The translations under genes were made by a program, and so were the position numbers. From NCBI GenBank assembly GCA_026984415.1, contig JALSSE010000002.1:1-5839 (forward strand): 5,839 bases of DNA, read 5' to 3'. The notes beneath the pieces are model-generated. The model did no database searches and was not told where the DNA came from. It was given only the letters and a program-made list of their open reading frames with translations. Positions 1,060 through 5,839 of this stretch are shown here, one piece after another (the stretch's first letter is position 1; the number at the start of each line of letters is the position of its first letter). The stretch is from Hydrogenothermaceae bacterium (GTDB lineage: Bacteria; Aquificota; Aquificae; Hydrogenothermales; Hydrogenothermaceae).

Positions 1060-1467
1060 TTATAAAGATACTGGAGACAATTCTATTTTTTCAATATTTG
1101 TATTTTCAGAATTAACAGGTACAGTTCCCCTTTCTGCTATCTTTTCATCAACACGTTTTGGTTTTAACTGTTTTAAAATATACTCCATTGCTTTAAATGT
1201 TTTTTCTTTTCCACCGCATGTGTAAACATCGATAGCAGCGTACCCATGTTCTGGCCATGTATGAATTGATATGTGTGATTCTTCTAATAGAATAACTCCA
1301 GTTGCTCCGTGGGGTGAAAATTGGTGAAAGTGTGATGATAATTTACTTAGGTTGGCGTATTTAACAGCTCCCTCCAAAAGGGCTTTTACATCTTCTACGT
1401 GGTCTAATTTGTCGAACTCAACTCCGTAAAGGTCTGCTAGGATATGCAATCCGAGGGTTTTTTCCAT
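1060..1467 (-). CDS. speH: S-adenosylmethionine decarboxylase proenzyme, class 1B (SpeH type)
   Basis: This enzyme decarboxylates S-adenosylmethionine to supply the aminopropyl donor for spermidine and longer polyamines. The 135-residue proenzyme matches the short bacterial/archaeal class, of which Thermotoga maritima is the well-studied example. The self-cleavage site is visible in LLEESHISIHTWPEHGYAAID: cleavage between Glu63 and Ser64 would turn Ser64 into the catalytic pyruvoyl group. His69 and Cys84 (VYTCGG) fall at the expected spacing for the processing histidine and the catalytic proton donor. The N-terminal GLHILADLYGV and SPHGATGV blocks are also typical. The start has an SD (GGAGG, 1475-1479) seven bases upstream. 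No speE (aminopropyltransferase) is in the window. The SD and first 31 bases lie inside an out-of-frame upstream ORF, which suggests translational control. The C-terminal tail after about residue 115 looks poorly conserved. Confidence 0.95.
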   Translation of the reverse strand: MEKTLGLHILADLYGVEFDKLDHVEDVKALLEGAVKYANLSKLSSHFHQFSPHGATGVILLEESHISIHTWPEHGYAAIDVYTCGGKEKTFKAMEYILKQLKPKRVDEKIAERGTVPVNSENTNIEKIELSPVSL

Positions 1468-1532
1468 TTTCTGTCCTCCATGAAATTATTTTTTACAAAA
1501 AAAGTACGTGGCGTCGGGCTATCTGTGCCCAT
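1437..1532 (-). CDS. Candidate 31-codon upstream ORF (leader peptide) overlapping the speH start
   Basis: On the minus strand an ATG at 1532-1530 is preceded by AGGAGG (about 1542-1547) nine bases away, a ribosome site at least as good as that of speH. The ORF begins MGTDSPTPRTFF, runs 31 codons and stops at TAG 1439-1437. It is in a different frame from speH and passes over the speH SD and first ten codons. The first nine or ten codons are strikingly GC-rich for this genome (18 of 29 bases in 1504-1532) and use codons such as CCG, ACG and AGC. The remaining codons are AT-rich and, near the end, dictated by speH. Ribosomes translating it would compete with speH initiation, so a polyamine- or SAM-responsive leader is a reasonable inference. 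It could instead be only a structured RNA element. It resembles no bacterial leader peptide I can name. Confidence 0.5.
   Translation of the reverse strand: MGTDSPTPRTFFVKNNFMEDRKWKKPSDCIS
1515..1531 (-). promoter_or_regulatory. Small GC hairpin at the upstream ORF start (speH leader)
   Basis: The transcript reads U-GGGC-ACAGAUA-GCCC-G: four G-C pairs (1527-1530 with 1516-1519) closed by a possible U-G pair, with a seven-base loop. It starts at the last bases of the uORF AUG, so it could modulate initiation there. It is followed by GACGCCACGUAC and a run of seven U. The T-run is 11 bases past the stem, so it is not a classical terminator. Such GC pairing in an otherwise about 25% GC leader points to a functional RNA structure, but the stem is short. 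Confidence 0.35.
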
Positions 1533-1540
1533 GGTAAAAA

Positions 1541-1547
1541 ACCTCCT
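1541..1547 (-). promoter_or_regulatory. Ribosome binding site of the speH upstream ORF
   Basis: Minus-strand AGGAGGT sits nine bases (counted from GGAGG) before the upstream ORF's ATG. It is a near-perfect match to the 16S anti-SD and is separate from the second GGAGG at 1475-1479 that serves speH. Two strong SDs in a leader of under 100 bases is the main evidence that the small ORF is translated. Confidence 0.6.
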
Positions 1548-1563
1548 GCAAATTTTTTTGAAA

Positions 1564-1578
1564 AGTTATATTATAACT
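1564..1578. repeat. 15-bp perfect palindrome over the speH -10 element
   Basis: AGTTATA-T-TATAACT is a perfect inverted repeat centred on 1571 and contains the proposed speH -10. It could be an operator through which a repressor blocks promoter opening, or an AT-rich coincidence. A looser inverted repeat (1584-1594 with 1601-1612, one extra base) lies over the -35 side. Confidence 0.3.
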
Positions 1579-4821: not shown

Positions 4822-4848
4822 AAAAAAGCCCTCTCTTTTTGAGAGGGC
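4822..4848 (-). terminator. Intrinsic terminator facing left
   Basis: An 8-bp perfect stem GCCCTCTC/GAGAGGGC (4828-4835 with 4841-4848) with a five-base loop is followed on the minus strand by six T (4822-4827). On the plus strand the hairpin is followed by AAAATCATGG with no U-run, so it is a poor plus-strand terminator even though it sits 11 bp after the UGD stop. It would end leftward transcription from the cytochrome gene, 160 bp upstream, or from a small RNA between them. Confidence 0.85.
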
Positions 4849-5007: not shown

Positions 5008-5839
5008 TCATTTAATTAAATAATTATTTCTGTAAAAATCAAGTAAAGTTTTAAATACAAAAATCAGTTCTTTCTCTTTTAATCCTGTTCCTATTTTCTT
5101 TATTTCTTTTAAATCCTCTAAAGAATTACCTTCTCCATGGTTAACACCAAATGCAGTATCAAAAACATCCCTACCTCTTACAAACATCTGGGTTAAAACA
5201 ACCTGCAAATATTTTCCATCCAATCCATACGCCCTCTCTTTAGAAGGTAAAAATAACTTTTGCTTAATAGAATTGTTTAAATTTAAATAACCTATGTATT
5301 CGGGGTTTGTAAGGATATTATTAGTTGAAGTTATTTTTAAACGTTCCTTTGCCTCTGTAAACATAAGTTCTTCACTTCCTTTTACACATTTTTCAGTCCC
5401 ATCATTTAATTTAATAAACCTTTCATAACCTAAAATTCTACAAACACCTTCAAAATTACTTCTAAAGTGGTCTATTCCATCTGCCATTGCAAAATAAAAC
5501 TGGTACTCTCCGTAATCCTCTGGATTGTACTTTTTAGCTATCGGTTTTAAAAATTCAGAAGCAGATGTATCTTCTATCTCTTTTAACTTTTCAGCCCAGT
5601 ATTTTATATCGTACACATCATTTGAATAACTATAATCTGTATCTTTCCATCCTGTAGATTTTGGCAGTTTCCTCCAGAAAGAAAAAGTATTATCAACTGT
5701 TCCACTGATAGCTCCATGACAGGACATACAGAAAGCCATTTCCTCTTCTGATTGAGGTCTTAAATATCCATTTTTATCTTCAATCCAACCACCCATAAGC
5801 CATGTTTCAGGGTCATTAGGCATTAGTCCTTTATCGTAA
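5008..5839 (-). CDS. c-type cytochrome-like protein, N-terminus outside window
   Basis: The frame is open from the right edge of the window to TGA 5010-5008, with about 276 visible residues. An ATG at 5823 is in frame, but codons continue upstream (YDKGL before it) and there is no SD there, so the true start and any signal peptide lie outside. One haem c attachment motif is clear: CMSCH, in MAFCMSCHGA about 40 residues into the visible part. The protein should therefore be exported and carry covalent haem. The remaining roughly 235 residues contain no second CxxCH. They are rich in charged and aromatic residues, with a few Met and His that could be the distal ligand. I do not recognise the family. 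More haem motifs may lie upstream. No redox partner gene is visible. Leftward transcription would end at the terminator 4822-4848. Confidence 0.7.
   Translation of the reverse strand, partial: YDKGLMPNDPETWLMGGWIEDKNGYLRPQSEEEMAFCMSCHGAISGTVDNTFSFWRKLPKSTGWKDTDYSYSNDVYDIKYWAEKLKEIEDTSASEFLKPIAKKYNPEDYGEYQFYFAMADGIDHFRSNFEGVCRILGYERFIKLNDGTEKCVKGSEELMFTEAKERLKITSTNNILTNPEYIGYLNLNNSIKQKLFLPSKERAYGLDGKYLQVVLTQMFVRGRDVFDTAFGVNHGEGNSLEDLKEIKKIGTGLKEKELIFVFKTLLDFYRNNYLIK

Follow-up and report, generated by a model that had tools for sequence, protein, structure and literature searches.

A conserved upstream open reading frame overlapping the speH start in Aquificales is a probable regulator of S-adenosylmethionine decarboxylase synthesis

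Introduction

The closest described systems are small upstream open reading frames (uORFs) on genes of polyamine metabolism. In enterobacteria, the uORF of speF, the ornithine decarboxylase gene, has been described as SpeFL or orf34. Excerpts of the published accounts report that SpeFL senses L-ornithine and undergoes arrest with inhibited RF1 release (PMC8429421), and that translation of orf34 is required for speF production, acting via Rho and RNA structure (PMC6386406). Like the locus studied here, this is a bacterial uORF on a polyamine-synthesis gene (PMC8429421, PMC6386406, excerpts). However, the gene in the present study is speH, encoding S-adenosylmethionine (AdoMet) decarboxylase, rather than speF, and the uORF overlaps its start out of frame. 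The Aquificales peptide bears no evident likeness to SpeFL.

MdtU, the uORF of Escherichia coli mdtJI, which encodes a spermidine exporter, is needed for the spermidine response and is best conserved at its C-terminus; its stop lies 106 nt before mdtJ, and spermidine induces the exporter (PMC7815308, excerpts). It is thus, like the Aquificales uORF, a bacterial uORF conserved best at the C-terminus (PMC7815308). The Aquificales uORF, in contrast, overlaps the speH start and presumably represses synthesis. In mammals, the MAGDIS uORF lies on the mRNA of AMD1, which has the same enzyme activity, and ribosome pausing at its stop at high spermidine is said, in excerpts of the papers, to block the main start (PMC4505036, PMC13025110). 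MAGDIS is eukaryotic, has six codons and lies near the 5' end, whereas the Aquificales uORF has a 31-nt out-of-frame overlap and bacterial Shine-Dalgarno sequences (SDs). TnaC and similar ligand-dependent small peptides regulate downstream genes by arrest at termination, as outlined in excerpts of PMC8429421; in the Aquificales uORF, arrest is inferred. TnaC differs from the Aquificales uORF in sensing tryptophan. It is not known to overlap the main start.

To our knowledge, no speH or speD leader peptide has been described in bacteria. None was named among the matches listed for bacterial speH or speD uORFs in the open-access literature, which lacks most subscription journals. A paper on AdoMet decarboxylase homologues (PMC10407285) does not mention a uORF, and none of the terms sought occurred in the main text of a paper on Aquificales non-coding RNAs (PMC4227106) or in the uORF4u paper (PMC10219788). 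A leader or arrest peptide is a known kind of regulator; the new element is its out-of-frame overlap on a bacterial AdoMet decarboxylase gene.

Results

Architecture of the speH leader

The window is the whole stretch of DNA analysed, 5,839 nt from a Hydrogenothermaceae bacterium (GCA_026984415.1, contig JALSSE010000002.1). The relevant features, all on the minus strand, are as follows.

1060..1467, minus strand: speH, S-adenosylmethionine decarboxylase proenzyme, 135 aa (TIGR03330, PF02675 and PDB 2iii alignment)
1467-1465, minus strand: speH start ATG (sequence)
1475..1479, minus strand: speH SD GGAGG, 7-nt spacer, inside the uORF, where it codes part of the MED residues (sequence)
1437..1532, minus strand: uORF of 31 codons, MGTDSPTPRTFFVKNNFMEDRKWKKPSDCIS, stop TAG (sequence; frame and stop the same in 101 of 102 Aquificales loci)
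1532-1530, minus strand: uORF start ATG (sequence)
1439-1437, minus strand: uORF stop TAG (sequence)
1542..1547, minus strand: uORF SD AGGAGG, 9-nt spacer (sequence)
1437..1464, minus strand: dual-coded stretch, speH codons 2-10 and uORF WKKPSDCIS-stop (synonymous diversity)
1516..1530, minus strand: small GC hairpin GGGC...GCCC, from the G of the uORF ATG (sequence)
1570..1575, minus strand: TATAAT, a likely -10 box (sequence)

The SpeH protein matched TIGR03330 at 141.4 bits (cut-off 75.65) as well as PF02675, and the speH start is supported because the alignment with PDB 2iii begins at Met1. The uORF is read in the +1 frame relative to speH. It spans the speH SD and start, and its TAG sits 31 nt inside the gene, giving an overlap of 31 nt. 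The predicted anti-SD duplex was stronger for the uORF SD (-11.5 kcal/mol) than for the speH SD (-9.3 kcal/mol). The two SDs, the frame shift and the overlap with the speH start, all pointed out in an earlier note on this DNA, were thus confirmed on the minus strand. The position of the TATAAT suggests that the transcript in the window starts about 30 nt ahead of the uORF.

Elsewhere in the window, at positions 4822-4848, an A run is followed on its right by an inverted repeat without mismatches, GCCCTCTC-TTTTT-GAGAGGGC (4828-4848); on the minus strand this reads as a hairpin followed by a T run. From its sequence, it probably terminates the minus-strand gene at 5008-5838. Two sub-threshold Rfam matches at 4822-4848 are probably due to chance.

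Conservation of the uORF across Aquificales

We collected speH loci from a SpeH scan that gave 80 loci (L001-L080), 44 of them outside Aquificota (L037-L080), and from a phylum-wide search of 136 Aquificota genomes, in which 128 had a match and 89 regions were taken. The counted set held 128 loci, two of them from one genome (G020), and 123 loci once duplicates were removed: 39 Hydrogenothermaceae-like (window included), 57 Aquificaceae-like, 6 of a third group and 21 Desulfurobacteriaceae-like. The first three groups make up the 102 distinct Aquificales loci. Hydrogenothermaceae-like loci were those with at least 80% identity to the window, and the other groups were sorted by hand, so that the '-like' names are working labels. 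Partial or paralog-only matches (G047, G112, G095, G119 and G123), and also G100 (= L024), stood outside the counted set. Many Hydrogenothermaceae genomes encode a further, distant SpeH-like protein (about 30% identity), for example at L087 (G001:C251:9226-9579) and L088 (G003:C2:8576-8926), and match counts point to one in Desulfurobacteriaceae too. This protein is possibly one of the changed-function decarboxylases of the family described in PMC10407285.

An in-frame ATG 29-119 nt upstream of speH, together with a TAG at +31, was present in 101 of the 102 Aquificales loci. The TAG at +31 ended the frame in 39/39 Hydrogenothermaceae-like, 57/57 Aquificaceae-like and 5/6 third-group loci, and loci L001-L028 (24 of the Hydrogenothermaceae type, two Aquifex and two 'Aquificales') had the same frame with an upstream ATG and this stop. 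A strong SD (core of 5 or more) preceded the uORF ATG in 39/39, 54/57 and 0/6 loci of the three groups, respectively (93/102 overall); the third-group SDs were weak. When we scanned for an SD followed by ATG upstream of speH in any frame, the uORF frame accounted for 38 of 39 sites in the Hydrogenothermaceae-like loci, 54 of 55 in the Aquificaceae-like loci (three loci had no site) and 92 of 95 in total. The offset of the uORF start shifted about 22 times on the speH tree, with the +1 frame imposed when starts were picked. Predicted SD strength was higher for the uORF than for speH in 37/39 Hydrogenothermaceae-like and 43/56 Aquificaceae-like loci, while the reverse held in 5/5 third-group loci. 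A -10-like hexamer lay before the uORF in 39/39 Hydrogenothermaceae-like loci and in all 56 usable Aquificaceae-like loci (one was cut by a contig end); none of the types sought was found in the 6 third-group loci.

We built a profile, A1, from 39 uORF peptides. It gave 99 strong matches (E below 1e-9) in 98 of the 136 Aquificota genomes, every one at a speH start, and 14 weak matches, of which 8 overlapped a speH start; any match at all was found in 107/136 genomes. The conservation of the ATG, frame, SD and overlap in relatives, which the earlier note had proposed to examine, was therefore borne out for the ATG, frame and stop and, in most loci, for a strong SD, and the C-terminal end of the peptide is kept in relatives too. 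The uORF is a short, SD-equipped ORF that overlaps one specific gene and is retained among relatives, as a leader peptide is.

The C-terminus of the peptide is conserved

The 101 uORFs encode 85 distinct peptides of 19-49 aa with variable N-termini. Five residues (E-13, W-9, P-6, S-5 and D-4) were invariant in 101/101 peptides, and four more were nearly so: K-10 in 100, C-3 in 98, I-2 in 95 and S-1 in 93. The common ending is KWxxPSDC[IT][SL]-stop, or [KR]WxxPSDC[IT][SL] when written more broadly, with PSDSIL in three peptides. Outside the group of the window, the N-termini read MRHV, MSCF, MKQL, MVWL and so on.

The earlier note had suggested a functional uORF on a bacterial AdoMet decarboxylase gene and had remarked that the peptide start MGTDS loosely recalls MAGDIS. 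The first suggestion is strongly supported by the conservation of the ATG, frame, stop and C-terminus. The likeness to MAGDIS did not hold: N-termini differ among groups, and the C-terminus is what persists. Kinship with MAGDIS was accordingly rejected, the peptides ending in PSDC[IT][SL] or PSDSIL.

The nucleotides that form the speH SD and ATGG account in part for the conservation of E, K and W. Other residues are held while SpeH itself varies: the uORF W is fixed where SpeH residue 2 is E, A or V, the P where residue 4 is T or A, and the S where residue 5 is L or I. In L180, a CTC to ATC change turns a SpeH Leu into Ile, and the uORF still reads Pro there through a synonymous codon. The residues held under SpeH changes, together with the L180 case, are not forced by the speH SD and ATGG nucleotides.

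Selection on the dual-coded stretch

We compared the ratio of synonymous diversity to expectation along speH. In the 39 Hydrogenothermaceae-like loci, it was 0.024 over codons 2-9 and 0.818 from codon 11 on, and no other run of 8 informative codons in the gene fell below 0.612. The corresponding values in the 57 Aquificaceae-like loci were 0.252 and 0.874; the remaining diversity came mostly from Lys3, where AAA/AAG just exchanges K and R in the uORF. On the speH tree of 102 loci, codons 5, 6, 8 and 9 changed 1-2 times, as against about 24 synonymous changes at codon 11. Codon 10 changed about 25 times, always among TTA, CTA and ATA save for ATT in L145. The uORF stop is made from this codon (NTA) plus the next G. 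In the Aquificaceae-like loci, NTA makes up 10% of Leu codons elsewhere in speH, whereas position 10 has NTA without exception, for Leu in 52 loci and for Ile in 5. These results showed that the constraint stops at the uORF stop. Codons with little synonymous change also occur outside the overlap: Asp12 (codon 12), beyond the uORF, changed 3 times on the tree and is invariant in Aquificaceae-like loci, and the Lys89 codon is invariant in Hydrogenothermaceae-like loci. L145 is the sole Aquificales locus without the frame; its upstream ORF is now short and ends before the speH SD, and in its speH the GGA and CTG of codons 6 and 7 and the NTA of codon 10 have all been lost.

In the part of the uORF outside speH, pN/pS over 41 disjoint pairs, the version we prefer, was 0.48 (95% 0.37-0.63) in the uORF frame; the shifted frames gave 0.82 and 0.99. 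With 62 overlapping pairs, the values were 0.46 versus 0.91 and 1.10. The Aquificaceae-like pairs gave 0.39 versus 0.75 and 1.52. Hydrogenothermaceae-like pairs alone gave 0.64 versus 0.87 and 0.55 and lacked a frame-specific signal, so the signal comes mainly from the Aquificaceae-like pairs. The peptide sequence is thus under selection, and the uORF architecture, its conservation and its purifying selection were all directly evident.

Desulfurobacteriaceae-like loci and other phyla

Among the 21 Desulfurobacteriaceae-like loci, an ATG uORF with a strong SD was present in 2, and in 13 the frame had no start that we found; in L188, L189, L190, L201 and L204, an SD-preceded TTG reads through to TAG at +31. 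Codons 2-9 of speH showed partial constraint (0.467 versus 0.853). Since most of these loci have no ATG uORF, some of this constraint may stem from something else; it may reflect either a related device (TTG starts or a tiny TTG frame) or, in part, the RNA level. Five of the 21 loci (L086, L191, L198, L203 and L205) carry the tiny frame, SD-preceded and reading TTG-S-V-I-stop, roughly 38 to 23 nt ahead of speH; in L205 it comes under an alternative, longer start. Between loci, only synonymous differences occur in its Val (GTT/GTC) and Ile (ATT/ATC) codons, and this MSVI-stop frame is possibly another speH uORF, of MAGDIS-like size.

Outside Aquificota, a rough scan of L037-L080 that allowed GTG/TTG and 4-base SD cores, and in which 6 of the 44 loci had no nearby start, found an SD-preceded out-of-frame ORF in 16/38 loci, mostly archaeal and all in the +2 frame except L071. 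These ORFs had no conserved end. Since a looser scan finds such ORFs in other phyla, an overlapping out-of-frame ORF alone proves little, and it is the conservation in Aquificales that carries weight. Profile A1 had no match in 28 non-Aquificota genomes (28 of the 44 loci), a set that holds no positive control. In six Thermococcales loci (L054, L057, L065, L066, L069 and L072), an ATG with an SD stands 19-34 nt upstream of the AdoMet decarboxylase start that we assumed, and its +2 frame enters the gene and ends at a variable position; the main start picked by the script is uncertain.

Discussion

We propose, with a probability of roughly 0.6, that the uORF is a translated cis-acting element that controls speH initiation, its C-terminus most likely slowing or arresting the ribosome. 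Translation, arrest and a repressive direction of control are what we infer from the sequence comparisons. Ribosomes recruited by the strong upstream SD would translate the short peptide and cross the speH SD and start; since the uORF SD is mostly predicted to be stronger than that of speH, they should often cover the speH start. The conserved C-terminus would most likely slow or arrest them near or at the TAG, 29-31 nt into speH. The P site of a ribosome held there, on the last sense codon, would lie about 25 nt from the speH AUG. The size of the ribosome footprint precludes two ribosomes about 25 nt apart, so a ribosome held at the TAG or at PSD would keep a second one from initiating and speH would be off. 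Relief of the arrest, or skipping of the upstream start, would allow speH to be made. Such a switch would resemble the control of this enzyme in animals and plants.

As for the ligand, we can only guess: the simplest signal would be spermidine or a longer polyamine as the end product, or else the substrate or product of SpeH. Characteristic polyamines are present in thermophilic Aquificales. The analogy with SpeFL, MdtU and MAGDIS suggests that a polyamine may be the signal, and polyamine feedback on speH via the uORF is plausible on these grounds. In its full form, our proposal is that a polyamine-sensing arrest uORF on AdoMet decarboxylase evolved in Aquificales independently of eukaryotes, that its PSDCIS-stop peptide holds the ribosome about 25 nt past the speH start at high polyamines (direct occlusion), and that the first ten speH codons carry the sensor in their second frame. 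We put this detailed version forward tentatively, at somewhat short of even odds.

A translated uORF could also act as a constitutive brake, lowering speH initiation through traffic alone with no sensing peptide. The strong uORF SD and the overlap would suffice for this, but it leaves the invariant peptide end and the stop position, kept across about 25 codon-10 changes, without explanation. That the final codons and the place of the stop are conserved argues for a termination step whose slowing or arrest is regulated, in preference to traffic alone, and we consider the constitutive brake unlikely.

The conservation might instead reflect RNA structure, either an anti-SD-like CCCUC in codons 4-5 that would pair with the SDs or the GGGC/GCCC hairpin, with the ORF incidental. 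CCCTC is near-universal in Aquificales (39/39 Hydrogenothermaceae-like, 56/57 Aquificaceae-like and 6/6 third-group loci; also 15/21 Desulfurobacteriaceae-like) and is kept in L145 despite the loss of the uORF, and the minimum free energy fold of the window pairs the uORF SD with the speH start. However, that fold has a z of only -0.72, the extra pairing of the uORF SD spacer with the speH start is small (median z -0.45 and -0.55), and an Rfam search of the leader gave no match at E up to 1. The constraint, moreover, reaches codon 10 in a pattern dictated by the uORF frame, and L180 has CCATC yet keeps the peptide. The hairpin, GGGC(4-10 nt)GCCC, occurs in 38/39 Hydrogenothermaceae-like loci but in 0/57 Aquificaceae-like and 0/6 third-group loci. 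Its first base is the final G of the uORF ATG in 35 loci and lies 2 nt past that codon in 3, while L099 carries GGCC/GGCC in its place. Of 41 genomes of the family, 34 each contain the combined SD, start and hairpin pattern a single time, and the other 7 lack it. The hairpin may tune uORF initiation, but it is not the common core of the system. We give an RNA element with an incidental ORF little credence. An RNA switch was rejected, given the lack of an Rfam match in the leader, the unremarkable fold energy and the scant excess of duplex between the SD spacer and the speH start.

Translational coupling would make the uORF an activator: ribosomes terminating at TAG +31 would travel some 30 nt backward by diffusion and initiate again at speH, as in the RNA-phage lysis gene, which offers a precedent for restart by backward diffusion. 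The stop fixed 29-31 nt into speH in 101/102 loci fits such a mechanism. Yet reinitiation about 30 nt backward is rare, speH has a good SD of its own with 7-nt spacing in the window, and coupling does not require a conserved peptide, all of which makes it quite improbable. A programmed -1 frameshift from the uORF into speH, yielding an extended SpeH, is more remote still and was rejected: GAAAAAA at speH codons 2-4 of Hydrogenothermaceae-like loci could slip, but it is missing from Aquificaceae-like loci, where codon 2 is GCA or GTC in 55/57 and two with GAA (L153 and L180) read GAAAAGG and GAAAAAG, and the uORF N-terminus is not conserved.

The arresting uORF that we favour is a thermophilic arrest-peptide candidate that could easily be studied in cell-free translation. 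If the proposal is true, a regulator would be dual-coded within an enzyme gene across a whole order, and the same enzyme would have come under uORF control in bacteria and in eukaryotes through separate evolution.
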